The translations under genes and the position numbers were made by a program. Positions 9,373-43,815 of a stretch of DNA of 64,000 bases are shown here, piece after piece (the first letter of the stretch is position 1; each line of letters begins with the position of its first letter). The notes below the pieces were generated by a model. It ran no database searches. It was not told the DNA's origin and saw only the letters and a program-made list of their open reading frames with translations. Source of the stretch: Sphaerochaetaceae bacterium (GTDB taxonomy: Bacteria > Spirochaetota > Spirochaetia > Sphaerochaetales > Sphaerochaetaceae). Where the stretch lies: contig JAQQAI010000051.1 in NCBI GenBank assembly GCA_028532915.1, positions 62,001-126,000 on the forward strand. Direction: 5' to 3'.

Positions 9373-9400
9373 CCGTCATGATATGTGAGTTGTTAAGTAT

Positions 9401-9928
9401 ATGGAAATAAAAAGTAGCGAGAACGCATCATTTCAGAGAGTGTACAAAGAAGTATTTCCTGTATTGATGAGAGTTGCATACCATGTGACCTATAATCTGG
9501 ATGTTTCCGAGGACATTGTCCAGGAGTCGTTCATCAGGTTTTATGAGAAGAATATCGATTTTGTTTCGGTTGATGAAGCCAAGTACTGGCTGATCAGGGT
9601 TACCAAGAATCTTGCCATCAACGTTGTGAAACGGAAATCGAGGGAGAAGGCGATGGTCGATAAGATCAAGAAAGTACCTAAGACTCCCGTTCAGAATGGT
9701 GAAGATGCTCTCATGAACACGGAGACAAGAGAGATGGTTCGTTCGGCTGTGGAGAAGCTGCCCGAGAAACTCAAGTCGGTTCTCATACTGAAAGAGTATG
9801 CGGATCTGAACTACAAGCAGATCGGAGTCATTCTTCATATTTCAGAGAGTAATGTAAAGGTCAGGGTGCACCGAGCCAGAAAGATGATGGAAACGATGCT
9901 TGACCGGGGAGAAATGCATGTGTCTTGA
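9401..9928 (+). CDS. ECF-type RNA polymerase sigma factor
   Basis: A 175-residue sigma-70-family protein with only regions 2 and 4, as in extracytoplasmic-function sigma factors. Region 2 includes DVSEDIVQESFIRFYEKN (about 39-56) and the -10-recognition helix AKYWLIRVTKNLAINVVKRKSRE. Region 4 carries AVEKLPEKLKSVLILKEYADLNYKQIGVILHISESNVKVRVHRARKMM with a clear helix-turn-helix (about 112-160). It directs RNA polymerase to a dedicated promoter set when released from its anti-sigma factor. The next gene, which overlaps it by 11 bases, encodes that likely partner. No autoregulated promoter could be recognised by eye upstream, so the signal and regulon are unknown. Confidence 0.92.
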   Translation: MEIKSSENASFQRVYKEVFPVLMRVAYHVTYNLDVSEDIVQESFIRFYEKNIDFVSVDEAKYWLIRVTKNLAINVVKRKSREKAMVDKIKKVPKTPVQNGEDALMNTETREMVRSAVEKLPEKLKSVLILKEYADLNYKQIGVILHISESNVKVRVHRARKMMETMLDRGEMHVS

Positions 9929-10469
9929 TGATCAGATTTTGAATACATATCTTGACGGAGAACTGGTTGAACCATGGAAGACTCAGGTAGAAGAACACCT
10001 GAAATACTGTACCGCCTGTTCGTCCCGTTTCAGGCAGCTGCAGGCTGTACATGAGATGGTCTGTTCCTCTCGTCTATCAGACGAGAAAATCGATGCTGCC
10101 CAGGAGAAGATCCTTGCCTTCATGGAGAACAAATATCTCCATAAAGAGAAAAAAGTGAAATTTCTTCACCGTGATTTCACGATGAAAACCCCGACGATCA
10201 TCGGTATCGCTGCTGCGTTCGTTCTGATATTCATCGGTGCATTCACTATCCAGAGTCCCTCTCTCAATGATTCTAATGTCCTTATCCCTCAGGTGGTGGA
10301 TACCCAGAGCGGAAACGTCACCCAGGTCAGTTCGATAGATTCACTGACGACGGACCAGATATTATCGAATCTTTCGCTCGAAGAGATCCTTTCCTATCTC
10401 GATTCAAAAGGTTTCGAAGTCGATCTCAAGGTGAAATCGGTGAATCCGATCGGAGAGTCAACCGACTGA
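9918..10469 (+). CDS. zinc-finger anti-sigma factor, membrane anchored
   Basis: A 183-residue partner of the preceding ECF sigma factor. The N-terminus (CLDDQILNTYLDGEL, then HLKYCTAC) is a zinc-binding anti-sigma domain with the HxxxCxxC signature near residues 29-36. A single membrane segment TIIGIAAAFVLIFIGAFTI (about 92-110) follows, then about 70 residues outside the membrane, serine- and leucine-rich and without recognisable domains. The start is the ATG at 9918 because GGGGAG lies at 9905-9910; a TTG at 9900 has no SD. The 11-base overlap with the sigma gene implies translational coupling. The outer part probably senses the signal or is a target of regulated proteolysis. Confidence 0.88.
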   Translation: MCLDDQILNTYLDGELVEPWKTQVEEHLKYCTACSSRFRQLQAVHEMVCSSRLSDEKIDAAQEKILAFMENKYLHKEKKVKFLHRDFTMKTPTIIGIAAAFVLIFIGAFTIQSPSLNDSNVLIPQVVDTQSGNVTQVSSIDSLTTDQILSNLSLEEILSYLDSKGFEVDLKVKSVNPIGESTD

Positions 10470-10496
10470 ACCGGCTGAAAATATTCTGTAAAGAAG

Positions 10497-10537
10497 AAAG
10501 TGCACAACCGCCGCTGCGGTACGTGCACTTTTTCTTT
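10497..10537 (+). terminator. terminator after the sigma/anti-sigma operon
   Basis: Stem AAAGTGCAC (10497-10505) pairs with GTGCACTTT (10523-10531). An inner stem ACCGC/GCGGT forms the loop, and TTTTTCTTT follows. It isolates the operon from valS. Confidence 0.85.
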
Positions 10538-10615
10538 ATACCCCTGATTTGGCGTGTTGTAACAGAGGGTCTATTTTGATACTATCGTCTTATTACCGGG
10601 TTTAAGGAGCATCAT

Positions 10616-30913: not shown

Positions 30914-31025
30914 ATATTGAAAAATATTGCTCTAGAACGCAAAATATCGATATGGAAGTATCGTATAAATAAATTTTGACAGATTTTTCTTGACAAGCTT
31001 GGATTATCCCATCATACTAGCCCTA
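30914..31025 (+). promoter_or_regulatory. promoter region of the iclR/ectoine island; leaderless start
   Basis: TTGACA (30990-30995), 17-bp spacer, CATACT (31013-31018), which places the expected transcription start at about 31025, the A of the IclR ATG. A second TTGACA lies at 30976. Upstream are the inverted repeat AATATT-GAAA-AATATT (30913-30928) and the perfect palindrome ATATCGATAT (30944-30953), both possible operator sites. Confidence 0.6.
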
Positions 31026-31834
31026 TGGTTCAATATACAAACGGTAGTTCAAATAATGATACACCTTACCCGATTGCGACTACTGTCGTGAAGGCTTTGA
31101 CGATAATTGAATATATCGCCTCTCACCAGCCGGTTCAGCCGGTGAAGATGGTCAGAGACCTTCAGCTCACCCGTGCGAACCTTCATCGTCTTCTTGCCAC
31201 ACTCGTACGAACGGGATATGTAGAGAAGACATCGAGCGGTTATCAGCTGTCTTTGAAGCTGTTTCAGCTCGGATCGACGGTTCCTGTGAAAGTACAGCTG
31301 CGGGAACTTGCCCGCTCTCACATGCATGATCTTGAACGCATCGCACGGGAGAACATCTATCTTACTGTTTTGTATAATGATCAGGTCATAGCTATCGAAG
31401 AGGTGAAAAGCGCACATACCGTGATTCTCAATCCTGATGTCATATACACATATCCGGTGAATTCATGCGCATCCGGCAAGATGCTGATTTCCAGTCTTTC
31501 GGCTGAGAATCTCGATGCGTACATTGAAAATCTCGATATGATCGCGAAGACAGAACATACGGTTACCGATAAAGCCGAATTTAAAAGACAGGTTCTCGAG
31601 GCAAGGGAAAACGGATATGCGATCGAACTGCTCGAATTCGGAAATCACCTTAACAGCATCGCGGCTCCTATCTGCGACAGAGAAGGGGAAGTGATAGCCA
31701 CCATCGGTATATCGGGGCCTTCAATGAGACTGACGGAAGCAAGGATCATGGAATTGATCGAGCCGCTGAAGAACAGCGCTGCTCTCATCACAGAAAAACT
31801 TATAAATAAACATAATAAAGCGCCACTGTGGTAA
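31025..31834 (+). CDS. IclR family transcriptional regulator
   Basis: A 269-residue regulator with the N-terminal winged helix (ALTIIEYIASHQPVQPVKMVRDLQLTRANLHRLLATLVRTGYVEKT, about 24-69) and the C-terminal IclR effector domain (about 90-255) with LPVNSCASGKMLIS-type and ELLEFGNHLNSIAAPICD elements. It precedes the whole ectoine island in the same direction by 26 bases and is the only dedicated regulator there. The characterised ectoine-catabolic clusters use the MocR/GabR-type EnuR or AsnC-type DoeX, so an IclR member would be a replacement. There is no SD before the ATG and the promoter spacing predicts a leaderless mRNA. The effector is unknown; N-acetyl-diaminobutyrate is a reasonable guess from EnuR. 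Confidence 0.88.
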   Translation: MVQYTNGSSNNDTPYPIATTVVKALTIIEYIASHQPVQPVKMVRDLQLTRANLHRLLATLVRTGYVEKTSSGYQLSLKLFQLGSTVPVKVQLRELARSHMHDLERIARENIYLTVLYNDQVIAIEEVKSAHTVILNPDVIYTYPVNSCASGKMLISSLSAENLDAYIENLDMIAKTEHTVTDKAEFKRQVLEARENGYAIELLEFGNHLNSIAAPICDREGEVIATIGISGPSMRLTEARIMELIEPLKNSAALITEKLINKHNKAPLW

Positions 31835-31860
31835 ATCACAGGTGGGAAAGGAGATGTATA

Positions 31861-33243
31861 ATGGATAATGAAAAAATGTTCGAACAGATGTCGATGGAAG
31901 GGGCTCCCAAGATCGTTACAGTACCTCCGGGACCTGCATCAAAAGAGATTCTGCAGTATCAGGCTGATAATGAAAGCAGCGCTGTTTCTTATTCGAAAGG
32001 TATGCCGATGGCAATTGCAAAAGCTAAAGGTGCAACGATCGAAGATGTAGACGGTAATATCTATATTGATATGTTCGCTGGTGCCGGGGTAATGGCTTTA
32101 GGTCATGGTCATGACGAAGTCCTCAAAGCAGCTCATGCACAGATCGACAAAGTTACCCATACTCTAGATATCCCTTCACCGACCAGAGTGGAGATGGTGA
32201 AAGCCCTCAGACGTATCCTTCCGAAGGAGCTTTCCAGAGTGTTCTTCGGCGGACCTACCGGTTCCGATGCTGTCGAGCAGGCTATCAAACTTGCCAAGTA
32301 CAACACAAAGAGAAACGGAATCATTGCTTTCGAAGGTGCTTATCACGGGATGACGGGAGTTGCGCTTGCTCTTACGACAGATTCAGGCCACAGAGACGGA
32401 ATAGGTGAGCTGGTCCCGGGTGTCCAATTCATCCCGTATCCGTATACCTACAGAAACCCGTTCGGCTGTCCTGACGAAGACCTTGATCTGCAGTGTGCCG
32501 ATTATCTCGAAAGAATTCTTGAGGATTCCCACTCCGGCACATCGCTTCCAGCAGCAGTCATTCTCGAATCCGTCCAGGGCGAAGGCGGAACTATCATTCC
32601 TTCACCCAGATTCATGCAGAGAGTGAGAGAGATTACGAAAAAACACGGAATCATCATGATCTGTGATGAGATTCAGGCCGGATTGGGAAGAACCGGAAAG
32701 ATGTTCGCTTTCGAACATGCCGGAATCGTTCCAGATATCATCACTATGAGTAAAGCGCTCGGTGGTGTCGGATTCCCGATCTCTGCTATTGCTTATAGAG
32801 AAGAATTGAACACGTGGCCTGCAGGTAAGACCATCGGAACTTTCCGGGGAAACATGATTGCTTTCGCTGCTGGTGCTGCTGCGCTTAACTGGATGAAAGA
32901 TAATAAGATTCCAGAAAGAACATTAGCTCTTGGTGAAAAAGCAATGGTCCGTTTCAAAGAGATCGAAGCAAAATATGATATCGTAGGTGAAGCAAGAGGT
33001 CTCGGCCTCATGATAGCTCTTGAAATGGTTACCGATTCAAAGAGTAAAACTCCTGCAGAAGCTCTTGCGAAGAAAGTGAGAAAGTATGCTCATCAAAGGG
33101 GCGTTATGATCGAAGTCGGCGGACATCACAACAATGTCGCTCGTCTATTACCACCATTAGTAATATCGGAAGAGTACTTGATGAAAGGTATCGATATTAT
33201 CGAGAGTGTTGTTAAAGATCTTCAAGATGGTAAACTTGACTAA
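31861..33243 (+). CDS. class III aminotransferase, diaminobutyrate type (DoeD-like)
   Basis: PLP enzyme proposed to convert L-2,4-diaminobutyrate and 2-oxoglutarate to aspartate semialdehyde and glutamate. The 460-residue protein has DVDGNIYIDMFAGAGVMALG, FFGGPTGSDAVEQAIKLAKY, FEGAYHGMTG, the PLP-contact Asp in ICDEIQAGLGRTGKMFAFEH and the Schiff-base Lys in ITMSKALGGVGFPISA. The PTGSDAVE and AYHGMTG forms are those of diaminobutyrate transaminases (EctB/DoeD/DatB group). AAAGGAG before ATG 31861 fixes the start; a frame opening at 31828 overlaps iclR. EctB of ectoine synthesis runs the same reaction, but no ectA or ectC is present and the neighbours are degradative. Confidence 0.85.
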   Translation: MDNEKMFEQMSMEGAPKIVTVPPGPASKEILQYQADNESSAVSYSKGMPMAIAKAKGATIEDVDGNIYIDMFAGAGVMALGHGHDEVLKAAHAQIDKVTHTLDIPSPTRVEMVKALRRILPKELSRVFFGGPTGSDAVEQAIKLAKYNTKRNGIIAFEGAYHGMTGVALALTTDSGHRDGIGELVPGVQFIPYPYTYRNPFGCPDEDLDLQCADYLERILEDSHSGTSLPAAVILESVQGEGGTIIPSPRFMQRVREITKKHGIIMICDEIQAGLGRTGKMFAFEHAGIVPDIITMSKALGGVGFPISAIAYREELNTWPAGKTIGTFRGNMIAFAAGAAALNWMKDNKIPERTLALGEKAMVRFKEIEAKYDIVGEARGLGLMIALEMVTDSKSKTPAEALAKKVRKYAHQRGVMIEVGGHHNNVARLLPPLVISEEYLMKGIDIIESVVKDLQDGKLD

Positions 33244-33262
33244 ACGTTTGGAGGAAAGATAA

Positions 33263-34279
33263 ATGGCTAAAACATATACAGTTGCAGTAGTAGGTGCATG
33301 TGGTGTCGTCGGGACCGAAATGATCTCGACGCTTGAGAGAAGAAAATTCCCTGTAGGGACTCTGGTCCCTCTCGATATCGCTTCACAAGCCGGAAAGGAA
33401 GTTGCCTTCAACGGTAAGTCATGGACAGTCAAGGAAGCGAAAGAGGGAGCGTTCAAGGGCGTCGATATCGCCATATTCTCGGCTGGCGGTGATGCGAGTG
33501 CGGTTCTCGCACCCATCGCGGTGAAAGAGGGTGCTATCGTTGTTGATAACAGCAGCCAGTGGAGAATGGATCCCGATTGTCCGTTAGTGATTCCCGAGGT
33601 GAATCCTCAGGATCTCGACTGGCATAAGGGGATCATTGCGAATCCTAACTGTTCCACAATCCAGATGCTGGTGGTTCTCAAACCTCTGCATGATGCAGCC
33701 AAAATCAAAAGAGTCGTCGTATCCACCTATCAGGCAGTCTCCGGTTCAGGAAAAAGAGCCATCGACGGACTCAAGGCCGAAGCTTCAGAATATCTTGCAG
33801 AAGGTAAAGTCTCTGCTCCGAAAGCTTACGGTCAGCAGATTGCTTTCAATGCAATTCCTCATATTGATGTATTCCAGGAAGGCGGATATACGAAAGAAGA
33901 GTATAAAATGGTAAATGAAACCAAAAAAATGCTCGACGAAAATATTGATGTTTCTCCAACATGTGTAAGAATTCCCGTCTGGTATGGCCATTCTGAATCT
34001 CTAAATATAGAGACAGAAAAGAAATTGAGTAGAAAAGAGGTGATGGATTTATTATCAACGGCTCCTTCAATAAAGGTTATTGATGAAGTTGAAAAAGAGG
34101 TTTATCCTACGCCCTTAATGAGTAACAATGAAGATCTTACCATGGTGGGCAGGATCAGAGAGGATTTCACGATTGATAATGGTATCAACCTCTGGGTTGT
34201 TTCCAACAATATCAGAAAGGGTGCCGCCCTCAATGCGGTACAGATTGCAGAAACGCTGATTGAAAGGAACCTTGTCTAA
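33263..34279 (+). CDS. asd: aspartate-semialdehyde dehydrogenase (phosphorylating type)
   Basis: A 338-residue Asd. The nucleotide motif is VAVVGACGVVGTEMI (about 7-21), then IFSAGGDAS, the catalytic Cys in IANPNCSTIQM (about 131-141), TYQAVSGSGK and a substrate-binding RIPVWYGHSES. Asd interconverts aspartyl phosphate and aspartate semialdehyde with NADP. Here it sits between the aminotransferase that would make aspartate semialdehyde and the deacetylase, so in this operon it may run in the oxidative, phosphate-consuming direction. The 3' third is markedly richer in A+T (35 percent G+C over 33961-34080 by count) than the 5' part (50 percent over 33541-33600). Spacing to both neighbours is short. 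Confidence 0.93.
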   Translation: MAKTYTVAVVGACGVVGTEMISTLERRKFPVGTLVPLDIASQAGKEVAFNGKSWTVKEAKEGAFKGVDIAIFSAGGDASAVLAPIAVKEGAIVVDNSSQWRMDPDCPLVIPEVNPQDLDWHKGIIANPNCSTIQMLVVLKPLHDAAKIKRVVVSTYQAVSGSGKRAIDGLKAEASEYLAEGKVSAPKAYGQQIAFNAIPHIDVFQEGGYTKEEYKMVNETKKMLDENIDVSPTCVRIPVWYGHSESLNIETEKKLSRKEVMDLLSTAPSIKVIDEVEKEVYPTPLMSNNEDLTMVGRIREDFTIDNGINLWVVSNNIRKGAALNAVQIAETLIERNLV

Positions 34280-34280
34280 G

Positions 34281-35471
34281 ATGAAAGATATCACCTCATA
34301 CGTAACGGAATTGACAGATGAACTGATAGAACTGCGCCGGGATTTTCACCGGCACCCGGAATTGGGATTCGAGGAGTATAGAACTTCGAAGGTAATTGAA
34401 GAGTATCTGCAATCATTGGGACTGAAAACTGAAAAAGTCGCCAAAACCGGTGTCGTTGCGTTACTTCGGGGTGAGAAATCCTCAGAAGGGCCGGTATTGC
34501 TCATGCGATCAGATATCGATGCCCTTCCTGTTCAGGAAGAGACTCAATTACCATTCAGCAGCGAGAATGCTAATGTCATGCATGCCTGCGGGCACGATGC
34601 CCACATCGCCATGATGCTTGTCGCTGCAAAGATTCTTTCTCAACATACAGCTTCTTTTGCCGGTTCGATTAAATTCGTCTTTCAGCCGAACGAAGAAGTT
34701 GCAGGGGCTCAAGTGATGATTGATGAAGGGGTACTGGAGAATCCTCACGTGGATGCCGCAATGGGCGTTCACATCTGGTCTCCACTGCCTTCCGGTACCA
34801 TAGGGATAAAATCGGGTGCAGTCACCTCGTCCATGGATGTGTTCAAAGTGACGATCCAGGGGAGAGGAGGACATACCGGTTACCCTGACAGCGCTGTTGA
34901 TCCTGTGATATGTGCTTCTCAGATAATCTCGCAGGTACAGACGATTCAGACTCGATTTGTTTCTCCAATGAAACCGATCGCTTTGATGTTCGGTCGTGTT
35001 GCGGGCGGAACGAAGAATAATATAATTCCAGACACCGTAGAGCTCGAAGGTACGATACGATACCTGTTCTCTACGAAACCTGGAGCTCAGGATAATCCTA
35101 CAGACAAGTTCGTCGAGATGGTGAATTCCATCTGCCAAACTTACGGCTGTAGTGCCGCCTTCGAAATCAATCACGAAAATGATGCTGTAGTGAACGATCC
35201 TATCATGACCAAATTAGGCTATGGTGCAGCCGCACAGGTAGTTGGTAAGGACAATGTAGCCGAACATTGTTCGATGGCATGTGAGGATTTTGCCGCATTC
35301 GCGGACTGTGTCCCCTCCATCTTTGCGTTCATCGGAACCGCAAGAAATGAAGCGAACAGCATCTATCCCCACCACAATCCGAAGTTTACGATCGATGAGG
35401 CAACCTTACCGACTGGTGTCTCATATCTTGTGACCGGTGCTTTGGATTATCTTAACGGAGGGTGCGAATGA
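34281..35471 (+). CDS. M20D amidohydrolase, proposed N-acetyl-diaminobutyrate deacetylase
   Basis: A 396-residue metal-dependent amidohydrolase of the hippurate hydrolase/N-acyl-amino-acid deacetylase group. It begins ELIELRRDFHRHPELGFEEYRTS and has the metal-site MHACGHDAHIAMML (about 95-108, Cys and His ligands), the catalytic Glu pair in FQPNEEVAGA (about 134), GVHIW, the dimerisation GRGGHTGYPDSAVDPV, and the last ligand in YPHHNPKF (about 362). By position it should cleave the acetyl group from N-acetyl-diaminobutyrate after ring opening; the known EutE/DoeB enzymes belong to a different AstE/AspA-type fold. The start ATG 34281 follows the asd stop by one base, with AAAGGAA upstream. Confidence 0.85.
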   Translation: MKDITSYVTELTDELIELRRDFHRHPELGFEEYRTSKVIEEYLQSLGLKTEKVAKTGVVALLRGEKSSEGPVLLMRSDIDALPVQEETQLPFSSENANVMHACGHDAHIAMMLVAAKILSQHTASFAGSIKFVFQPNEEVAGAQVMIDEGVLENPHVDAAMGVHIWSPLPSGTIGIKSGAVTSSMDVFKVTIQGRGGHTGYPDSAVDPVICASQIISQVQTIQTRFVSPMKPIALMFGRVAGGTKNNIIPDTVELEGTIRYLFSTKPGAQDNPTDKFVEMVNSICQTYGCSAAFEINHENDAVVNDPIMTKLGYGAAAQVVGKDNVAEHCSMACEDFAAFADCVPSIFAFIGTARNEANSIYPHHNPKFTIDEATLPTGVSYLVTGALDYLNGGCE

Positions 35472-35532
35472 TTTAGAAGATGATGGCCGTAAGTGAAAGG
35501 AGGTCCACTGCGGCTATTGTGTAGTTTTTAAA

Positions 35533-35555
35533 TGCACAGTAATGGGTACTGTGCA
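35533..35555 (+). repeat. perfect 9-bp hairpin in the leader of the TRAP genes
   Basis: TGCACAGTA (35533-35541) and TACTGTGCA (35547-35555) with an ATGGG loop, ending about 10 bases before the AGGAGG of the binding-protein gene. It has no T tract, so it is an operator or an mRNA 5' stabiliser rather than a terminator. Confidence 0.6.
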
Positions 35556-35575
35556 AAACTCGATAGGAGGAAAGT

Positions 35576-36634
35576 ATGAAAAATCGAATCGTAATTATGG
35601 CGTTAATCTTTGCGTTGTTAATTTCGAGTGCATCGGTATTTGCTCAGGGCGAGGGAGAAGCATCCCAGACCTATGAAGTGCGAATGCCGACCGCAGAAGC
35701 CGAAGGCGACTTCATGACCGTATGGGCAAAAAACTTTGCCGATTACATGAGTGATGAGTCTGACGGTCGTTGGAATATTCAGGTATTCCCTTATGGAACA
35801 CTGGGGGAAAACGACAATATTCCTGAACTGGCTCAGATGGGTGTCGTTGAGTTTGTATTCGCTGACTACGGTTGGCTCAGTGGATTCGTACCACAGACAA
35901 ACACTCTGGCTCTCCACTACATCTGGCCGAAAGACAACCTTCCCGAAATACTCGAATGGGTAAACAAAAACGGGAAATTCATGGCTCTCATGGAAGAAAA
36001 ATACCGTGAAAACGATCTCGTTCCACTCGGTATCTTCTACGAAGGCTGGCAGTGGCTCACCAGCAAGCAGCCTATCGATGATCTGTCCGACCTTGTCGGT
36101 CTGAAGACCCGTATCATGGCTTCGAACATGCTGGCAAAAGACTATTCCGCTTACGGAATCGACCCGACACCGATGGCGTACGGTGAAATCTACAGCGGAT
36201 TGCAGACCGGGCTTATCGATGCTCAGAGTCAGCCGATGTTTGCAAACTATTCAATGGGCTTCTACGAAGTGTCCGACTATTTCGTACAGCTTTGGGCAGA
36301 ACCTTTCCTGGGTATTCCTTGTGTGAACAAATCTTTCTTTGACTCTCTCTCTGAAGAAGATCAGGCGATGATCCGCGGTTACTGGCAGGATGTTGTAGCT
36401 GAATCAGCAGTATGGATCCAGGCAAAGAACGACGAGATGAAAGAAGAGATTGCTCAGAAACGACCTGAGATCTCCTTCAAAGAACTCACTGAAGATGAGA
36501 TTGCCACCCTCAGAGGTCTGGCAGAAACCAAAGTTTATCCTGAATTCCCGTCAATCGGCGGCGAAGATTCAGCGATGATGCTTGAAGTTCTGAAGCAGGA
36601 TGTTGCCGACGCACAGGCTGCATTAGGGTTGTAG
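35576..36634 (+). CDS. TRAP transporter substrate-binding protein, TeaA/UehA-like
   Basis: A 352-residue periplasmic DctP-type receptor with signal peptide MKNRIVIMALIFALLISSASVFAQ (cleavage after VFA). By-eye comparison with the ectoine receptor TeaA shows shared FPYGTLGE, EGW, LKTRIMAS (LK-x-R-x-M, with the ligand-carboxylate Arg), PTPMAYGEIYSGLQTGLID and an acidic residue in the first strand (PTAEAEGD), where TeaA has a ligand-binding Glu. The GQENP motif of TeaA is AQSQP here, so affinity or specificity may differ. AGGAGG precedes the ATG. It is the first of three TRAP genes in the ectoine island; hairpins bracket it, suggesting higher expression than the permease genes. Confidence 0.88.
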   Translation: MKNRIVIMALIFALLISSASVFAQGEGEASQTYEVRMPTAEAEGDFMTVWAKNFADYMSDESDGRWNIQVFPYGTLGENDNIPELAQMGVVEFVFADYGWLSGFVPQTNTLALHYIWPKDNLPEILEWVNKNGKFMALMEEKYRENDLVPLGIFYEGWQWLTSKQPIDDLSDLVGLKTRIMASNMLAKDYSAYGIDPTPMAYGEIYSGLQTGLIDAQSQPMFANYSMGFYEVSDYFVQLWAEPFLGIPCVNKSFFDSLSEEDQAMIRGYWQDVVAESAVWIQAKNDEMKEEIAQKRPEISFKELTEDEIATLRGLAETKVYPEFPSIGGEDSAMMLEVLKQDVADAQAALGL

Positions 36635-36649
36635 AAGATCTATATAGAC

Positions 36650-36676
36650 GGGCTCAAGAAGATTCTTCTTGAGCCC
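36650..36676 (+). repeat. strong 12-bp hairpin between TRAP receptor and permease genes
   Basis: GGGCTCAAGAAG (36650-36661) and CTTCTTGAGCCC (36665-36676) with an ATT loop. No T run follows, so complete termination is unlikely; it could protect the 3' end of the receptor mRNA or partly stop transcription. Confidence 0.7.
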
Positions 36677-36700
36677 TCTATGATAGAAAGGTAAAATTTT

Positions 36701-37336
36701 ATGAGTGAAAATAACACTACAAAAAACACTTCCCGGGGCGATCGATGGAAGCGAATCGGCAGGACCGCATCACTGATAGTTGACAAATTTGAAGTTTGGG
36801 TTCTACTGATTAGCACTGCTGGACTTGCCGTGTTGCTCATCGCGAATGTTATCGCAAGAAACGTCTATCGTTCCATTCACTTTGCTGAGGAGATCGCCAA
36901 ACTCTTCATCATTCTGATTACGTTCATAGGAACATCATATGCAGCCAGAAAGGCACGTCATATCAGAATGGGAGCTCTTCTGGAGGCTCTTCCAGTAAAG
37001 GTCGAAAAAGTTCTGATTCTAATCATTTCTGCAGTAAGTGCGGCAGTCATGTTCTATCTGGCTGTTATCGCTTTCAATTATATGGTGGATCTTCAAAGTC
37101 GGGGAACATTGACACCTTCATTGAGAGCACCATACTGGCTGTTCATCATTCCGGCGCCGATCGGTCTGTTTCTGGCCGCTTTCCAGTTTGCCCGGACTTT
37201 CATCAAGAACATAGTTGAAAAAGAAGTCTGGTTATCTCCCGAACAGCAGGATGAATACGAAGACGAGGAGATCATGCTTGAGAACGCTATGGCAAGCATC
37301 GACCTCGATAAGATAGAATTAAAGGAGACCGAGTAA
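36701..37336 (+). CDS. TRAP transporter small permease (DctQ)
   Basis: A 211-residue inner-membrane protein with four hydrophobic segments (about 33-53, 67-85, 103-125, 145-165). It has the DctQ hallmark FAEEIAKLFIILITFIGTSYAARKARHIRM (short parts of it: EEIAK and ARHIRM). The C-terminal 40 residues are acidic and cytoplasmic. It pairs with the large permease in sodium-driven uptake. The SD is AAAGG. The DctM start follows its stop by one base (TAATATG), indicating coupled translation. Confidence 0.9.
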   Translation: MSENNTTKNTSRGDRWKRIGRTASLIVDKFEVWVLLISTAGLAVLLIANVIARNVYRSIHFAEEIAKLFIILITFIGTSYAARKARHIRMGALLEALPVKVEKVLILIISAVSAAVMFYLAVIAFNYMVDLQSRGTLTPSLRAPYWLFIIPAPIGLFLAAFQFARTFIKNIVEKEVWLSPEQQDEYEDEEIMLENAMASIDLDKIELKETE

Positions 37337-37337
37337 T

Positions 37338-38615
37338 ATGGGTATCATGGGATTAATCATGGTTGCGATGCTGATGCTTGGGTTCCCCTTCGTCATCGTC
37401 CTTTTAGGTCCGTTGCTTGCATATCTTGGGATCACCATGCCCAACATGAATATGCAGGTTGTCATCCAGCAGGTGATCAACGGATTCGTACCTCCCTCAT
37501 TGGTGTGTGTACCGATGTTCATTCTGGCAGCAAACATCATGACAAGCGGAAAGGCTGCTGCACGGCTTGTGGAGATGATCAGAGTCTATGTGGGACATAT
37601 TCCCGGAGGTCTGGCCATCACGACGAATGCCAGCTGTACCCTCTTCGGAGCTGTTTCGGGTTCGACTCAGGCTACAGTATCAGCAATCGGCGGAACGATG
37701 AGACCGATGCTTCTGAAAGCAGGATATTCATCATCATTCAGTCTCGGGCTGATCATCAATGCGAGTGATATCGCTCTGCTGATCCCGCCGAGTATCGGAT
37801 TCATCGTTTACGGTGTTGTTACCAGCACATCCATCGGTAAACTGTTCCTTGCAGGTATAGGGCCGGGGATCCTGATCTTTTTGCTGTTTTCGATATTTGT
37901 CTTCTTCTATTCCAAGATCAAAAAGATCGCCATCATGGAGAAGGCATCGAAGGCTGAACGGCATAAAGCATTTAAAGACGGCTATCTTGTTCTCGGCTTC
38001 CCGATCATCGTCGTCGGGGGAATCTATGCAGGAATTTTCTCTCCTACAGAAGCTGCTGCAGCAGGTGTAGCATATGCTCTTATTCTGGAAGGACTGATTT
38101 ACCGGACACTGACTTTCGAGAAGCTGAAAAAGGCTATTTTGGATGCCGGTATCGTCACAGGTGTCGTGTTCATCCTCGTCGGTGCAGGTCAGGTGTTCAG
38201 CTGGCTCATCAGCTTCCTGCGGATACCTCAGGCTATCATGCCGGGAATCATCGGAACCGATCCGACCCAGCTTCAGCTTATCATCGTTGTGGTTATCGCA
38301 TACTTCATCGCATGCATGTTCGTTGACCCGATCGTCGCCATCTACGTTCTGTCTCCGATTTTCCAGCCGTACGTCGTCATGACAGGAATCGATCCTGTAT
38401 TCCTCGGAACACTGATCGTCCTTCAGGCTGCAGTCGGTTCGGCAACACCACCGTTCGGATGTGATATCTTCACCGCTCAGCTGATCTTCAGACGGCCGTA
38501 CCTGGAGGTAATTCGGAAAACTCCTCCGTTCGTCCTGATTCTTATCTTCTCGACGGTTTTACTGATCATTTTCCCGCAGATAGCAACATTCCTTCCGAAT
38601 GCCGCAGGATTGTAG
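37338..38615 (+). CDS. TRAP transporter large permease (DctM)
   Basis: A 425-residue inner-membrane protein with about twelve hydrophobic segments, the ion-coupled transport subunit. It has typical DctM features: an FVPPSLVCVPMFILAANIMTSG segment, SCTLFGAVSGSTQATVSAIGGTM (about 96-118), INASDIALLIPPSIGFIVYG (about 140-159), FSPTEAAAAGVAYAL (about 234-248) and SATPPFGCDIF near 371. It is preceded by AAAGGAGA. It completes a UehABC/TeaABC-type system and is followed after 45 bases by the racemase-like gene of the same island. Confidence 0.92.
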   Translation: MGIMGLIMVAMLMLGFPFVIVLLGPLLAYLGITMPNMNMQVVIQQVINGFVPPSLVCVPMFILAANIMTSGKAAARLVEMIRVYVGHIPGGLAITTNASCTLFGAVSGSTQATVSAIGGTMRPMLLKAGYSSSFSLGLIINASDIALLIPPSIGFIVYGVVTSTSIGKLFLAGIGPGILIFLLFSIFVFFYSKIKKIAIMEKASKAERHKAFKDGYLVLGFPIIVVGGIYAGIFSPTEAAAAGVAYALILEGLIYRTLTFEKLKKAILDAGIVTGVVFILVGAGQVFSWLISFLRIPQAIMPGIIGTDPTQLQLIIVVVIAYFIACMFVDPIVAIYVLSPIFQPYVVMTGIDPVFLGTLIVLQAAVGSATPPFGCDIFTAQLIFRRPYLEVIRKTPPFVLILIFSTVLLIIFPQIATFLPNAAGL

Positions 38616-38660
38616 AGCACGATCAGGACATAAATAAGCAGTATCTAAGGGGATGCAAAG

Positions 38661-39398
38661 ATGATTTATACAGTCAACAGATCGAGTGTAAGTTATGGGG
38701 AAACAATCGGAATCCTTTTGTTGGAAAACTTTGTTCCGTTCATTCCCGGCGATACGGCAAACGCAACAACCTACCGCTATCCGGTCCGTTTTCAACGGGT
38801 TCCCGGATTGTCGGTGGAGCGGATATTCAACCATGATCTGAGCATGTATCAGATTTTGAAGGAAAAAGCTGTATCTCTGTACGAGGAAGGGGTGAAAGCG
38901 ATTACCGGCGACTGCGGCTTCATGGCGGTATACCAGAAACAGCTGGCTGCCGACATGGATATCCCGGTCTTTCTATCGAGTCTGCTTCAGATTCCTTTCA
39001 TGCTCTCAATCATCGGAGGAACAGACTCAATCTCAATCATCACGGCAAACTCCCGTTCGCTGACATCAGATCTTCTCGAAAATCTTGATGTCACAGAGAA
39101 GATGCGCAGTCGGATCCATATCGTGGGGCTGGAGGACTGCCGGGAATTCGTGGAGGCCGTGTTCGAGGAAAAAGGGACTCTTGACAGCGAGAAAGTTGAG
39201 AAGTGTGTGGTTGAACACTCTCTCACAGCAGTCAGGGACTGCCCTTCCACGAAAGCTATTTTATTGGAGTGTAGTTTGTTACCCCCGTATGCACATCGTG
39301 TCGCTGAGGCAACAGGGCTACCGGTATTTGATTATATCACCATGATTGACTATGTGCACGACGCTCTCATCAAACGTCGTTATACAGGCCACATGTAA
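38661..39398 (+). CDS. aspartate/glutamate racemase-family protein (EutA position)
   Basis: A 245-residue protein of the Asp/Glu/hydantoin racemase superfamily. It has IGILLLENFVPFIPGDTANATTYRYPVRF at the N-terminus, a first reactive Cys in AITGDCGFMAVYQ (about 79) and a second in LLECSLLPPYAHR (about 205), the two-base cysteine pair of the fold. Ectoine clusters of marine alphaproteobacteria carry EutA, from the same superfamily, with an unproven role in hydroxyectoine use. The sequence here looks more like general Asp/Glu racemase-like proteins than EutA, so it is placed by context. It might isomerise a diaminobutyrate or hydroxy-diaminobutyrate intermediate. The SD is AAGGGGATG. Confidence 0.75.
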   Translation: MIYTVNRSSVSYGETIGILLLENFVPFIPGDTANATTYRYPVRFQRVPGLSVERIFNHDLSMYQILKEKAVSLYEEGVKAITGDCGFMAVYQKQLAADMDIPVFLSSLLQIPFMLSIIGGTDSISIITANSRSLTSDLLENLDVTEKMRSRIHIVGLEDCREFVEAVFEEKGTLDSEKVEKCVVEHSLTAVRDCPSTKAILLECSLLPPYAHRVAEATGLPVFDYITMIDYVHDALIKRRYTGHM

Positions 39399-39416
39399 TA
39401 TCACAAGGAGGAAAAA

Positions 39417-40595
39417 ATGTCTTTATTCAAGAAAGAAGAGTATCTCAGCAGAATCGAAAAGACCAAGACTCTGATGAGTGAAAGAGGAATCGAACTGCTG
39501 ATGGTCTCCCATCCGGCGAACCTGAACTACCTGACCGGATATGACGGTTGGAGTTTCTATGTCCATCAATGTGTTCTAGTCGCTCTCGACAGAGAGGAAC
39601 CTGTCTGGATAGGGCGGGGAATGGATGCAAACGGGGCAAGATTGACAAGCTTTTTATCAAATGAGAGTATTTTCGAGTACGCTGACAACTACGTACAGTC
39701 GACAGAGAGACATCCGATGCATTTCGTTGCCGATATCATCAGAAAATTCCATTGGGAAAAGAAGAGTATCGGTGTCGAGATGGATCAGTTCTATTTCACT
39801 CACCGCTCTTACGTGGAACTCGAGAAATCTCTTCCTCAGGCATCCTTTGTCGATGCGAATGCCCTTGTCAACTGGGTTCGCGTTGTAAAAAGTGAAGCAG
39901 AACTGGAACTGATGGGAATTGCCGGCCAGATCGCAGTGAATGTGATGAACGCTGCAAAGACTCATATCAGACCCGGTGTGAGAGAATGTGATGCGGCCTC
40001 GGAGATCGTGAAAGCCCAATATGCCGGAACTTCGACTCACGGTGGGGATTATCCAGCGATCGTTCCTCTGATGATGGCCGGAGAAGCAACGAAAACTCCC
40101 CACCTGACTTGGTCCGACAAACCCTTCAAGAAAGACGAGGCTGTTCTTCTGGAACTGAGCGGAGTCTATAAGCACTACCATGCTCCTATTGCGAGAACGA
40201 TCTACCTGGGAACGAATCCTCCTCAGCTGATGACAGACACTGCAAAGGTCGTCATCGAAGGACTTGCAAAGACTCTTGAATGGATAAAACCCGGAGTGAC
40301 TGCCGAAGCTGTCGAAGCAAAATGGAGAGAGGCTATCAGTCATTCCAAGGTGGTGAAGGAATCCCGTCTCGGTTATTCCATCGGAGTGAACTATCCGCCA
40401 GACTGGGGCGAACATACCATCAGTCTCCGTCCCGGTGACAAAACAATCCTCAAACCCAATATGGCACTCCATCTGATACCCGGGATCTGGTACGATGATG
40501 TAGGGTTCGAAATCGACGCTTCGATCTACATGACGGAAACAGGATATAAGGCATTGTACGATTATCCTATCGATATCATCTATAACGATAAGTAG
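39417..40595 (+). CDS. doeA: ectoine hydrolase, M24 family (DoeA/EutD), copy 1
   Basis: A 392-residue cytosolic M24-fold enzyme proposed to open the ectoine ring to N-acetyl-diaminobutyrate. It has the subgroup marks NYLTGYDGWSFYVHQ (about 34-48), GRGMDANGARLTSF, ADNYVQS, NWVRVVKSEAELELM, HGGDYPAIVPLM, PDWGEHTISLRPGD and HLIPGIW. At the metal site, prolidases have two Asp; here they are Glu246 (LLELSG) and Pro257 (HYHAPIART), as in metal-free creatinase, which fits the covalent, metal-independent mechanism described for EutD. The SD AAGGAGG is strong. The neighbours (EutB, EutC, TRAP, aminotransferase) make ectoine the likely substrate. A paralogue lies 2 kb downstream. Confidence 0.87.
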   Translation: MSLFKKEEYLSRIEKTKTLMSERGIELLMVSHPANLNYLTGYDGWSFYVHQCVLVALDREEPVWIGRGMDANGARLTSFLSNESIFEYADNYVQSTERHPMHFVADIIRKFHWEKKSIGVEMDQFYFTHRSYVELEKSLPQASFVDANALVNWVRVVKSEAELELMGIAGQIAVNVMNAAKTHIRPGVRECDAASEIVKAQYAGTSTHGGDYPAIVPLMMAGEATKTPHLTWSDKPFKKDEAVLLELSGVYKHYHAPIARTIYLGTNPPQLMTDTAKVVIEGLAKTLEWIKPGVTAEAVEAKWREAISHSKVVKESRLGYSIGVNYPPDWGEHTISLRPGDKTILKPNMALHLIPGIWYDDVGFEIDASIYMTETGYKALYDYPIDIIYNDK

Positions 40596-40602
40596 GTGAA
40601 AA

Positions 40603-41580
40603 ATGATCAATAGCAGTGTTTCTATAAGCGATGTGTTCAGTGCGGCAAGACGTATCTATCCTATCGCGAAAGTAACGCCTCTGATCTCATCTTCGGCTTT
40701 GAGCAGACAATTCAAAGCCGAATCTCTTCATTTTAAAGCCGAGATGATGCAGGAGACAGGATCATTCAAAATAAGAGGAGCCGCGAACAGGATCCTCTCT
40801 TTGGCAGATGATGAAAAGAAAAGAGGTGTAATCACCTTCTCGACGGGTAATCACGGACGTGCTGTAGCCTATGTCTCTCATACCTGTCAGATACCGGCGA
40901 CAGTCTGTGTCTCTAAGAGAGTGCCTTCATATCGGGTGAAATCGATCGAAGCTCTGGGAGGAAATGTCGTTCAGAAAGGAGAAGGGCAGGATGATGCGGA
41001 AAAAGAGTATGAAAAACTGAGGGATGAGAAGAATCTCATTCCTGTAGTTCCTTTCGATGATCCATTTGTCGCGGCAGGTCAGGGTACCATCTCGCTGGAA
41101 ATTTATAACCAGCTTCCACAGATCGATACTCTCATCGTCCCTCTCAGCGGAGGAGGTCTTCTGGGAGGGATGGCCATGGCCATCAAATCGATAAAACCGT
41201 CAGTCAGAGTGATAGGTGTTTCGATTGCCCGATCTCCGGCAATGCTTGAAAGTGTGAAGGCTCAGAAAGTCGTGCAGGTGGAAGAGAAGGACACTCTCGC
41301 AGACTCTCTTCTCGGTGGTATAGGATTCGATAACAGATATACGCTCGATTTGGTGTCCCGGTATGTAGATGAACATGTCGTTGTCGATGAAGAAGAGATC
41401 GCCGAAGCGATGCGCTATCTGTTCTATAATCACGGGATAGTGGTCGAAGGTGCCTCAGCGACGTCTCTTGCCGCCATTCAGAAGGGTCTTATCGATATCG
41501 AAGGATGCAATGCCGTGATGCCGCTGACTGGAAGGAACGTGGATTTCGAGAAATATTTTTCAGTGATTCATAACAGATAA
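40603..41580 (+). CDS. eutB: PLP threonine dehydratase-like enzyme (EutB)
   Basis: A 325-residue fold-type II PLP enzyme. The Schiff-base Lys is in ETGSFKIRGAANR (about 50-62), then TFSTGNHGRAVAYVS, the glycine loop LSGGGLLGGMA (about 184) and a C-terminal EGASATSLAAI. There is no regulatory ACT domain, as in EutB-type proteins. In hydroxyectoine-using bacteria EutB and EutC together are thought to convert hydroxy-diaminobutyrate to diaminobutyrate; the likely EutB step is beta-elimination of the hydroxyl group. AGGTGA lies before the ATG, seven bases after the hydrolase gene. On sequence alone a serine/threonine dehydratase or serine racemase is possible; the context favours EutB. Confidence 0.83.
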   Translation: MINSSVSISDVFSAARRIYPIAKVTPLISSSALSRQFKAESLHFKAEMMQETGSFKIRGAANRILSLADDEKKRGVITFSTGNHGRAVAYVSHTCQIPATVCVSKRVPSYRVKSIEALGGNVVQKGEGQDDAEKEYEKLRDEKNLIPVVPFDDPFVAAGQGTISLEIYNQLPQIDTLIVPLSGGGLLGGMAMAIKSIKPSVRVIGVSIARSPAMLESVKAQKVVQVEEKDTLADSLLGGIGFDNRYTLDLVSRYVDEHVVVDEEEIAEAMRYLFYNHGIVVEGASATSLAAIQKGLIDIEGCNAVMPLTGRNVDFEKYFSVIHNR

Positions 41581-41593
41581 AGGAGATAACCGT

Positions 41594-42595
41594 ATGAAAT
41601 TGGATCCGATTATTATATTGAATGAAAAGGAATTGCGAGAAAATGTCCATCTCGATCACTCTCTCATAGATGAGATCGAAAAGGGGTTTATCGCATTATC
41701 GAACAAGGAAGCTACTGTTCCTCCTATTATGATGCTTCCGGTTCCCAAGAAGGATGGAGAAGTTGATATCAAAAGCGCTTTCGTCCATACGATGGAATCG
41801 ATGGCAGTCAAAATAGCTTCCGGATTCTTCAAGAATCCCGATATAGGACTGCCTTCACAAAGCGGTCAGATGCTCGTAATTTCAACCGAGACAGGAATGC
41901 TTCAGGCTGTATTGCTCGACAACGGTTATCTTACACAGATAAGAACTGCGGCAGCAGGAGCGATCGCCGCAAAATTTATGGCAAAGAAAGAGGTAAGCGC
42001 TGTCGGTGTGTTCGGATGCGGAGTTCAATCACGTTATCAGATGGAGGCTCTTTCCCTCGTTCGCAGGTTCGATAAGATCGTTATGTTCTCAATCGATACA
42101 CCTGAACGAAAAAAGGCATTTGTCGACGAGATGAAAGAGAGACTCAATGTAGAAGTCGTCATCGCCGAATCGGGCGAACAGCTCGTCAGTGAATGTGACA
42201 TAGTCGTTACCACTACACCGAGCAGGAAGGCTTACTTTTCTCCGAAGTGGCTCCATCGAGGATTGCATATCACGTCGATGGGCTCTGATGCGGAGGACAA
42301 ACAGGAACTGTATGCCGACGTCTTTGAGAATGTTGACGTGATAGCCTGTGATCTTATATCTCAAAGTACCCGTCTCGGCGAGTTGAGAGCCCCGAAAGAG
42401 GCCGGATACCTCAAAGACCTTTCCTGCGTGAGAGAGATCGGTGATATCATCTCGGGAAGGAAGAAGGGCAGAGAGACCGATGATCAGATCACCGTTTGTG
42501 ATCTCACCGGAGTAGGTGTACAGGATACGATGGTGGCTATGATGGCATATCTCATCGCAAAAGACAAACACATAGGAATAGAGATTCCCAGGTAG
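41594..42595 (+). CDS. eutC: ornithine cyclodeaminase-like protein (EutC)
   Basis: A 333-residue member of the ornithine cyclodeaminase/mu-crystallin family. It has VHTMESMAVKIASGFFKNP, TGMLQAVLLDNGYLTQIRTAAAGAIAA (short marks: LLDNG, RTAA), the NAD-binding GVFGCGVQSRYQMEAL (about 138-153), CDIVVTTTPSRKAYF, HITSMGSDAEDKQEL and VCDLTGVGVQDTMVA. It contains all the residues usual for a reductase/cyclodeaminase Rossmann domain. With EutB it would reduce the imine or enamine product and so complete the conversion of hydroxy-diaminobutyrate to diaminobutyrate; this is an inference from known clusters. AAAGGAGA precedes the ATG. The next gene starts 10 bases downstream. Confidence 0.85.
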   Translation: MKLDPIIILNEKELRENVHLDHSLIDEIEKGFIALSNKEATVPPIMMLPVPKKDGEVDIKSAFVHTMESMAVKIASGFFKNPDIGLPSQSGQMLVISTETGMLQAVLLDNGYLTQIRTAAAGAIAAKFMAKKEVSAVGVFGCGVQSRYQMEALSLVRRFDKIVMFSIDTPERKKAFVDEMKERLNVEVVIAESGEQLVSECDIVVTTTPSRKAYFSPKWLHRGLHITSMGSDAEDKQELYADVFENVDVIACDLISQSTRLGELRAPKEAGYLKDLSCVREIGDIISGRKKGRETDDQITVCDLTGVGVQDTMVAMMAYLIAKDKHIGIEIPR

Positions 42596-42605
42596 GAGCC
42601 GTACA

Positions 42606-43775
42606 ATGAAACATATACCGTTTGGTGAAAAGGAATATGCCAGAAGAGTCGATCTCGTGAAAGAGAGGATGGACCACAGGGGTATCGAGGTTCTGCTCGT
42701 ACTCGATCCGTCACATATGAACTACCTTACCGGTTTTGACGGATGGTCTTTCTACGTTCACCAGGGATTGGTGATCTCTCTCAAAGATGAATATCCTTCG
42801 TGGTTCGGAAGAGCTCAGGATTCAAATGCCGCGAGAATGACAACATATCTGCCTGAAGATCATATATACGGGTATAAGGATGAATACGTCCAGTCAAGAT
42901 ATATCCATACGATGGAATTCGTGGCCGGTATGATCAAGGGAAAGGGAAAGACCCTGGCGATCGAGATGGACGGATACTGGTGCAATCCGAAGATGTACTC
43001 TGTGCTTCATAGAGAACTTCCCTCGATGAACATCGTAGACAGTGAGAATCTGGTCGGCTGGGTCAAGACGATCAAAAGTGAACAGGAAATCGCCTATATA
43101 AGAGAGGCGGGGAAGATAACCGTCCGGGCGATGGATATCGCATTGGAAAACATCAGAGAGGGTGTGGCCGAGAGAGAGGTCGCGGCGTTGGTGAGTGCTC
43201 AACAGATAAGGGGAACCGATACATACGGTGGAGATTCTCCCGCAATATTCCCCATCATACCGAGTGCCGAAAGGACATCAAGCGCCCATCTGACCTACAG
43301 CCCCGATCGTTCTTATCAGAAAGGAGATGTCGTTCTTCTGGAGCTGGGCTCAGCGCGTTACCATTATCATGCTCCATTGTCAAGAACTGTGTTTATCGGA
43401 GATCCTCCGAAGGATCTGCAGCATGTTTCTTCGGTTGTCGTAAACGGACTTCAGAAGACTCTTGAAGAAATCGGTCCGGGGATGACGGCACAGGAGGTCG
43501 AATCTGTCTGGAGAAGTCAGCTTGCCGGAACCGGAGTCGAAAAACCTTCACGCGTAGGATATTCCTTCGGCCTGGCTTTCGTCCCTGATTGGGGTGAACA
43601 TACCGTATCTTTGAGACCCGGAGATATGACCGTATTGAAAGAGGGGATGACCATCCATTTTATGCCCGGAATCTGGCTCGATACGTACGGTTTCGAGTGC
43701 AGTGAACCGTTCGTTGTCACTTCGTCGGGATGTGAGAAACTGATAGAGTATCCGCAGAGATTGTTTACCCTGTAA
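42606..43775 (+). CDS. ectoine hydrolase paralogue, M24 family (DoeA/EutD), copy 2
   Basis: A 389-residue paralogue of the enzyme at 39417, colinear almost throughout: NYLTGFDGWSFYVHQ, GRAQDSNAARMTTY, KDEYVQS, GWVKTIKSEQEI, YGGDSPAIFPII, LLELGSARYHYHAPLSRT and PDWGEHTVSLRPGD. Glu246, His255, Pro257 and Arg260 have the same residue numbers as in copy 1, so it is also of the metal-free type. The two differ around the likely substrate pocket, for example STHGGDYPAIVPLMMAG versus DTYGGDSPAIFPIIPSA, which would fit one enzyme for ectoine and one for hydroxyectoine. It is last in the island and followed by a terminator. GGAG lies before the ATG. Confidence 0.85.
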   Translation: MKHIPFGEKEYARRVDLVKERMDHRGIEVLLVLDPSHMNYLTGFDGWSFYVHQGLVISLKDEYPSWFGRAQDSNAARMTTYLPEDHIYGYKDEYVQSRYIHTMEFVAGMIKGKGKTLAIEMDGYWCNPKMYSVLHRELPSMNIVDSENLVGWVKTIKSEQEIAYIREAGKITVRAMDIALENIREGVAEREVAALVSAQQIRGTDTYGGDSPAIFPIIPSAERTSSAHLTYSPDRSYQKGDVVLLELGSARYHYHAPLSRTVFIGDPPKDLQHVSSVVVNGLQKTLEEIGPGMTAQEVESVWRSQLAGTGVEKPSRVGYSFGLAFVPDWGEHTVSLRPGDMTVLKEGMTIHFMPGIWLDTYGFECSEPFVVTSSGCEKLIEYPQRLFTL

Positions 43776-43785
43776 TTCATTTTAG

Positions 43786-43815
43786 AGAGGGAGTCGATGA
43801 CTCCCTCTTCCTTTT
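43786..43815 (+). terminator. terminator closing the ectoine island
   Basis: AGAGGGAGTC (43786-43795) and GACTCCCTCT (43799-43808) around GAT. TCCTTTT follows, 11 bases after the last stop. Confidence 0.85.

Follow-up and report, generated by a model that had tools for sequence, protein, structure and literature searches.

The view in 2018 was that ectoine consumers are restricted to the Proteobacteria (PMC5924519). In Ruegeria pomeroyi and Sinorhizobium, the genes form operons of the type uehABC/ehuABCD-eutABCDE-ssd-atf, and Halomonas elongata carries doeABCD together with teaABC. In April 2026, putative clusters that usually have two eutD genes and no eutE were reported in Thermodesulfobacteriota and Bacillota, and that report also names Actinomycetota and archaea (PMC13188858). 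Here, we describe a run of twelve genes in a 64,000-nucleotide stretch of DNA from a Sphaerochaetaceae bacterium (assembly GCA_028532915.1, contig JAQQAI010000051.1, positions 62,001 to 126,000 of the forward strand; the whole stretch is called the window). Judged from its sequence, the run is very probably one inducible operon with which an anaerobic, fermentative spirochaete obtains nutrients by scavenging ectoine and 5-hydroxyectoine. Ectoine/hydroxyectoine catabolism as the predicted function is well supported, and so is a fermentative, anaerobic spirochaete as the host.

Like the Ruegeria and Sinorhizobium operons, the window island combines ectoine-type import with EutD, EutB, EutC, and a transaminase, but it lacks EutE, Ssd, EutA, and EnuR and has an M20 amidohydrolase, Asd, a PRK07475 protein, an IclR regulator, and two EutD clades. 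A DoeA-like hydrolase, a diaminobutyrate (DABA) transaminase, and a TeaA-like binding protein are shared with H. elongata; unlike in that organism, there is no DoeB (AstE type) or DoeC (aldehyde dehydrogenase type), and the transporter lies inside the operon. The clusters of April 2026 come closer. The common features are the usually two eutD genes, the missing eutE, EutB/EutC, and, in some clusters, a TRAP importer; the Thermodesulfobacteriota clusters lack ssd, as the window island does, and the Bacillota clusters, like the island, have an amidohydrolase (abgB) and no EnuR. Unlike the window island, none of the clusters in that text is from a spirochaete; the Results as available do not mention Asd, and the Bacillota clusters there carry homoserine and aldehyde dehydrogenases. 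The Thermodesulfobacteriota loci surveyed here also differ from the window in carrying PanB-like, 316-amino-acid, and GDH/aminotransferase genes.

Tests for EutE, Ssd, and EutA found none of the three, and the island therefore does not belong to EutABCDE/DoeABCD as defined. It is an Asd-type, IclR-bearing variant of the two-eutD, eutE-less clusters, in Spirochaetota. A sequence-only reading of the window had taken the genes for a complete pathway in a lineage outside the well-studied aerobic proteobacteria. As a statement about EutABCDE/DoeABCD, the first part fails: EutE is missing, Asd takes the place of Ssd/DoeC and IclR that of EnuR, and the racemase-like protein does not match EutA. The second part holds, but the April 2026 report (PMC13188858) had already placed clusters of this kind in Thermodesulfobacteriota, Bacillota, Actinomycetota, and archaea. 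Among the papers covered by our literature search, none dealt with anaerobic ectoine use by spirochaetes.

Results

Gene content and layout

Families, gene order, conservation, and catalytic-site signatures were computed, as was the absence of EutE and ectoine synthase. The twelve genes lie on the plus strand at 31025-43775, with intergenic gaps of −20 to 104 bp, in the order iclR, class-III aminotransferase, asd, M20, TRAP P/Q/M, PRK07475 racemase-like gene, eutD1, eutB, eutC, eutD2. The families, single strand, order, and coordinates proposed earlier all held, and a terminator-like stem is present where a closing terminator had been read. The features are as follows.

30990..31018, plus strand: promoter-like TTGACA-N17-CATACT, immediately 5' of the first gene
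31025..31834, plus strand: IclR-family regulator, likely the local regulator (PF01614, PF09339)
31828..33243, plus strand: class-III aminotransferase, predicted L-2,4-diaminobutyrate:2-oxoglutarate transaminase (TIGR00709); the start is probably an internal ATG
33263..34279, plus strand: aspartate-semialdehyde dehydrogenase (Asd), asd_B type, predicted catabolic copy (TIGR01296/PRK14874, over the cut-offs)
34260..35471, plus strand: M20 amidohydrolase, predicted N-acetyl-diaminobutyrate (ADABA) deacetylase replacing EutE/DoeB (TIGR01891, over the cut-off)
35576..36634, plus strand: TRAP substrate-binding protein, UehA/TeaA-like (best Protein Data Bank [PDB] matches 3fxb, 3gyy, 2vpn)
36701..37336, plus strand: TRAP small permease (weak DctQ-type match, position, conserved order)
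37338..38615, plus strand: TRAP large permease (TIGR00786, over the cut-off)
38661..39398, plus strand: PRK07475 Asp/Glu-racemase-fold protein with invariant C85 and C204 (family match, 20 homologues, fold search)
39417..40595, plus strand: EutD1, M24-fold protein lacking the metal ligands, predicted to hydrolyze ectoine (PDB 6twk/6twj, tree, ligand columns)
40603..41580, plus strand: EutB-like pyridoxal phosphate dehydratase (best models PRK07476/TIGR02991, under the cut-off)
41594..42595, plus strand: EutC-like ornithine cyclodeaminase-family reductase (PRK08291, over the cut-off)
42606..43775, plus strand: EutD2, second EutD clade, predicted hydroxyectoine-branch hydrolase (PDB 6twk, separate clade, co-occurrence with EutB)
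43785..43809, plus strand: intrinsic-terminator-like stem ending the run (pattern search)

The identical 12-gene order recurs in four further spirochaete genomes, two from another genus of the window's family (G224 and G328) and two from a different family (G371 and G377), as well as in locus L037 of a Spirochaetia metagenome-assembled genome (MAG). This survey had been proposed as a check on the sequence-only reading, and because of this recurrence the arrangement is not due to chance. In both genera of the window's family, the island is flanked by serC-lrp on one side and a dihydroorotate dehydrogenase-like gene on the other; the flanking genes in G371 and G377 differ from these. Both G224 and G328 retain the promoter hexamers, with the proviso that promoter- and terminator-like patterns across the region occur in chance-level numbers. 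EnuR, a MocR/GabR regulator gene, is not adjacent to the operon; the IclR gene occupies that place, and its product would probably control the operon. The sequence TTGCTCTAGAACGCAA lies 5' of the promoter (window 30927-30942), with TTGCGGAATAGCGCAA in the same place in L022 and TTTCGTTATAGCGCAA in L023; it is a candidate IclR operator. Between the M20 and TRAP P genes there is an inverted repeat, TGCACAGTAATGGGTACTGTGCA (window 35535-35557), which has no T-run and is possibly an RNA processing or stability element.

Two EutD-like hydrolases

The best family model for both M24 proteins is the ectoine hydrolase TIGR02993 (470 and 377 bits). Because both miss its equivalog cut-off of 613 bits, which no match in 393 spirochaete genomes reaches, we call them EutD-like and not members of that equivalog. 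In the PDB, the top match of each is the crystallized ectoine hydrolase DoeA (6twk/6twj/6yo9), with E = 1.6e-112 for EutD1 (379.7 bits versus 90.0 bits for prolidases) and E = 1.5e-93 for EutD2 (317.3 bits versus 107.1 bits for prolidases). The runners-up are prolidases (E = 1.6e-24 for EutD1 and 1.1e-29 for EutD2), and full-length homology puts both proteins closer to DoeA than to other M24 enzymes. EutD1 and EutD2, like DoeA and EutE-linked proteins, have substitutions in four of the five columns that hold the M24 metal ligands, with a Glu kept at the first column; the residues are E246, P257, Y320, and I/M354, compared with D/N, D/S, H/P, and E/D in prolidase-type M24 enzymes. EutD1 E246 corresponds to Glu255, which we take to be a residue with a catalytic role.

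In our trees, EutD1-like and EutD2-like proteins form two groups, each on one side of a branch with a Shimodaira-Hasegawa-like approximate likelihood ratio test (SH-aLRT) value of 99, and both groups fall inside the set that contains DoeA. When M24 outgroup proteins are included, the outgroup splits off with an SH-aLRT of 96, although this rooting is weak, with very long outgroup branches. The sequence-only reading would have been refuted by a phylogeny that put both M24 proteins outside the EutD/DoeA clade; instead, both side with DoeA, away from the prolidase-type enzymes of the M24 family.

The two EutD groups differ at 23 group-specific positions in the alignment. EutD1 has Asp-Ala at positions 367-368, where nearly all others have Ser/Thr-Glu; in EutD2, the Tyr126, Trp232, and Pro327 of almost all other sequences are replaced by Trp, Phe, and Val. 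EutD2-clade genes accompany EutB in ten loci (L022-L025, L035, L037, L044, L070, L084, and L093), and EutD2 is absent from the EutB-less loci that have flanks of 5 kb or more in each direction (L030 from Desulfuromusa, L034, and L040). The exceptions to the pairing are L078, on a 5.3-kb contig, and L027. The latter, on contig C15 of G224 (9925-11866), is a solo pair of a racemase-like gene and a divergent EutD2-like gene outside the island.

This co-occurrence suggests a division of labor, with EutD2 serving hydroxyectoine and EutD1 serving ectoine. EutD1 would open the ectoine ring to give ADABA, and EutD2 would most likely open the hydroxyectoine ring likewise. There is an appreciable, though less than even, chance that the two enzymes do not split the substrates in this way and that EutD2 is auxiliary, its substrate being, for example, the gamma-acetyl isomer or an acylated intermediate further along the pathway. 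Indeed, a single EutD handles both ectoines in proteobacteria (PMC8739950), H. elongata DoeA yields two ADABA isomers (PMC5924519), which would leave work for a second enzyme, and EutD2 departs from the consensus at several near-invariant positions. An auxiliary role does not account well for the company that EutD2 keeps, since its genes go with EutB and are missing from the full-flank loci without EutB.

Import

The TRAP system is of the DctP/Q/M type, and its binding protein fits the earlier description as TeaA/UehA-like. Its closest solved relatives are ectoine binders: of its best solved matches, 3fxb, 3gyy, and 2vpn, 3FXB is UehA and 2VPN is TeaA (PMC13342039). Proteins of the UehA/TeaA type are known to bind the carboxylate of ectoine through an Arg (PMC6344544). 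The aligned Arg is retained in the window protein, and TeaA Phe66, Trp167, and Phe209 are replaced by Trp, Tyr, and Phe, so that the aromatics are kept. These three TeaA residues are presumably the ones that line the ectoine pocket. The system would import both ectoine and hydroxyectoine.

An M20 enzyme in the place of EutE

The sequence-only reading had equated the M20 protein with EutE/DoeB, which proved incorrect: the known EutE/DoeB enzymes are AstE type (TIGR02994), a different family. The AstE/AspA family (PF04952) was not found in the locus or in the window genome (G000), so that no EutE/DoeB is present there; as a control for TIGR02994, Pseudomonas EutE scores 580.7. The M20 protein exceeds the TIGR01891 cut-off (332 bits versus 153.75). 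Among 85 eutD loci, M20 is encoded in 58 and EutE in 7, with none having both and 20 having neither within the fetched flanks, some of the archaeal M20 matches being weak (25-30% identity). Because EutE is absent and M20 and EutE are mutually exclusive in these loci, the best reading is that M20 replaces EutE as the predicted ADABA deacetylase. It would remove acetate to give DABA or 3-hydroxy-DABA.

An M20 deacetylase has a precedent, as the NCBIfam DoeB2 family is itself M20. The DoeA2/DoeB2 set (NF038259/NF038260) shares with the window an M24-fold hydrolase, an M20 deacetylase, and a DABA transaminase, but the window proteins score far lower with these models (198 bits versus a cut-off of 575 and 263.5 bits versus 550). 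Another spirochaete genome, G130, has adjacent DoeA2, DABA aminotransferase, and DoeB2 genes in L028 (contig of 3,285,855 bp, 9152-12933), with 745.6 bits for DoeA2 and 603.3 bits for DoeB2, both over the cut-offs. No window-type EutB/EutC or TRAP genes were found alongside, and this set is unrelated to the window island.

EutB, EutC, and the racemase-like protein

The EutC-like protein passes PRK08291 (411.9 bits; cut-off, 408) and stays under TIGR02992 (344.6 bits; cut-off, 471.65). EutB and EutC also match the BhcB/BhcD models, and the PDB relatives of EutC include iminosuccinate reductase 6rqa. BhcB and BhcD convert beta-hydroxyaspartate via iminosuccinate to aspartate; EutB belongs with the threonine dehydratases and EutC with the ornithine cyclodeaminase/imine reductase enzymes. 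By analogy, EutB and EutC probably turn 3-hydroxy-DABA, a beta-hydroxy amino acid, into DABA: EutB would dehydrate the hydroxyl to an imine that EutC would reduce, and the hydroxyectoine branch would thereby join at DABA. R. pomeroyi grown on hydroxyectoine contains little hydroxy-DABA and much DABA, indicating rapid conversion (PMC8739950), and the proposed step fits these levels. In an older proposal, EutABC work on the ring before it is opened (PMC5924519).

The racemase-like protein matches PRK07475 (266 bits; cut-off, 231), the only model matched at E ≤ 0.001. Its identification as EutA was rejected, as the EutA model went unmatched in the family scan. C85 and C204 are invariant in 20 homologues, and a structural model (predicted local distance difference test [pLDDT], 90) gives distant fold matches to Asp racemase, arylmalonate decarboxylase, and allantoin racemase. 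A strict tie of this protein to hydroxyectoine was also rejected, since it is present with EutD1 in loci without EutB/EutC.

Aminotransferase, Asd, and the fate of DABA

The aminotransferase passes the DABA-transaminase model TIGR00709 (413 bits versus 401.6), and Asd passes TIGR01296 (440.7 bits versus 324.2). The cluster contains no gene for a DoeC/Ssd aldehyde dehydrogenase; the phosphorylating-type Asd is in its place. The aminotransferase gene adjoins asd in all Asd-type loci with full flanks, Desulfuromusa included. Beyond the island, G000 has two Asd genes, one of the asd_B and one of the asd_EA type. Additional Asd genes, of the asd_EA type or another, also lie elsewhere in G371, G377, and G328; in G326, where the island is missing, the divergent type is the only Asd. 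Because there are further Asd genes elsewhere in the genome, the island copy is most likely dedicated to catabolism. The second asd_B gene of G000 (L109, contig C37) lies directly behind a class-I aminotransferase-like gene. We do not claim a single origin of the catabolic Asd, as its tree with the second asd_B copies (L109 and L126) gives no resolved monophyly.

The aminotransferase would convert DABA to aspartate semialdehyde, which the dedicated Asd may turn into aspartyl phosphate and then aspartate, or which may exit via homoserine. One elaboration, which we regard as tentative and rather doubtful, is an energy-conserving fermentation in which separate enzymes open the rings of ectoine and hydroxyectoine, Asd runs backward, and aspartokinase forms ATP and aspartate. 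In that case, semialdehyde, phosphate, and NADP would give aspartyl phosphate and NADPH, and aspartokinase would then yield ATP by substrate-level phosphorylation. Ssd/DoeC yields only aspartate and NAD(P)H; the Asd/aspartokinase route would add ATP. By open reading frame reading only, a putative aspartokinase in G000 adjoins a hydrogenase-like protein with ferredoxin-type cysteine motifs, and a ThrA-type protein is encoded elsewhere.

Other clusters differ at this point. EutD/M20 clusters without the class-III aminotransferase and Asd occur in anaerobic Clostridia, Desulfosarcina, and Halanaerobiales (L031, L032, L036, L038, L040, L044, L050, L053, L058, L070, L093, and L100); they carry a PanB-like gene, a gene for a protein of about 316 amino acids without a Pfam/NCBIfam match, and a GDH-like or class-I aminotransferase gene. 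This content suggests another route for DABA, perhaps one that begins with alpha-deamination and then uses a retro-aldol step to release pyruvate and a one-carbon unit. The AlphaFold model of the 316-amino-acid protein (L044:7812-8759 and homologues, alignment A3; pLDDT, 81.5) has distant TIM-barrel matches to class II aldolases and 2-methylisocitrate lyase, with TM values of 0.4-0.5. In L048, L051, L059, and L076 (Peptoclostridium, Tissierellia, Sedimentibacter, and a Syntrophomonadaceae MAG), EutD and M20 occur with aldehyde:ferredoxin oxidoreductase and an SHMT-like gene.

Host and distribution

The window genome G000 comprises 2.64 Mb in 96 contigs and is 97% complete. It belongs to the same class as G371, a single contig of 4,653,970 bp, in agreement with the spirochaete host named earlier. 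We take G371 to be Sediminispirochaeta smaragdinae, a culturable strict anaerobe; this species, formerly Spirochaeta smaragdinae, is a strictly anaerobic, obligately halophilic fermenter (PMC3035371). A search for haem-copper oxidases found none in G000, G224, G328, or G371, and the result for G000 supports an anaerobic lifestyle and the fermentative host that had been proposed. A close EutD match occurs in 7 of 393 Spirochaetota genomes; within the window's family, the figures are 6 of 139 genomes and 2 of 22 genera. A scan of named genomes yielded 79 loci, many on short fetched contigs, from more spirochaetes, Desulfuromusa kysingii, Clostridia, Atribacteria, Desulfosarcina, Bacilli, haloarchaea, and proteobacteria. 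Desulfuromusa kysingii DSM 7343 (L030) has an ectoine-only version without EutB, EutC, and EutD2.

Discussion

The earlier proposal of ectoine/hydroxyectoine import and degradation is supported by the DoeA-like M24 pair and the UehA/TeaA-like binding protein; we infer all reactions, substrate assignments, and the direction of flux from the family and locus data. Several findings weigh against this function. The M24 proteins fall short of the ectoine hydrolase equivalog, and the EutB-like protein, whose best model of 40 is PRK07476, reaches 377.7 bits against a cut-off of 413. The closest model of the M20 protein is CpsA carboxypeptidase, with DoeB2 second. The racemase-like protein tracks EutD1 and not EutB and is superfluous to every proposed step, and aspartate ammonia-lyase, which would bear on the fate of aspartate, was not found in G000.

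Scores of several core enzymes below strict equivalog cut-offs could also mean that the EutDs, the M20 enzyme, and the binding protein have drifted and that the operon degrades a different, chemically similar solute, such as another cyclic amidine or an N-acyl diamino acid. The Asp-Ala of EutD1 at 367-368 and the changes in EutD2 at near-invariant Tyr126, Trp232, and Pro327 would agree with such drift, as would the solo racemase-EutD2-like pair that G224 carries outside such clusters (L027). We nevertheless consider another solute quite unlikely, because a UehA/TeaA-like transporter encoded together with two DoeA-like hydrolases, EutB, EutC, and a DABA-type aminotransferase indicates one pathway.

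Similarly improbable, in our judgment, is a mainly osmoprotective role of the import system, with the enzymes merely clearing ectoine after a salt down-shock. H. elongata TeaABC is osmoregulated (PMC5924519), and the obligate halophily of S. smaragdinae (PMC3035371) would suit such a role. In the window, though, the genes for transport and catabolism are closely packed downstream of a single promoter, like substrate-induced nutrient operons (PMC5924519). The genome also lacks an ectoine synthase: only a sub-cut-off cupin match was found in G000, which is thus not an ectoine producer.

Ectoine and hydroxyectoine scavenging by a fermentative spirochaete is therefore the reading we favor. With the island in the presumed S. 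smaragdinae and an ectoine-only version in D. kysingii, anaerobic ectoine use, the division between EutD1 and EutD2, and the replacements by M20 and Asd are directly testable. If the reading is true, oxygen-free saline sediments and oil-field waters would hold an unrecognized ectoine sink.

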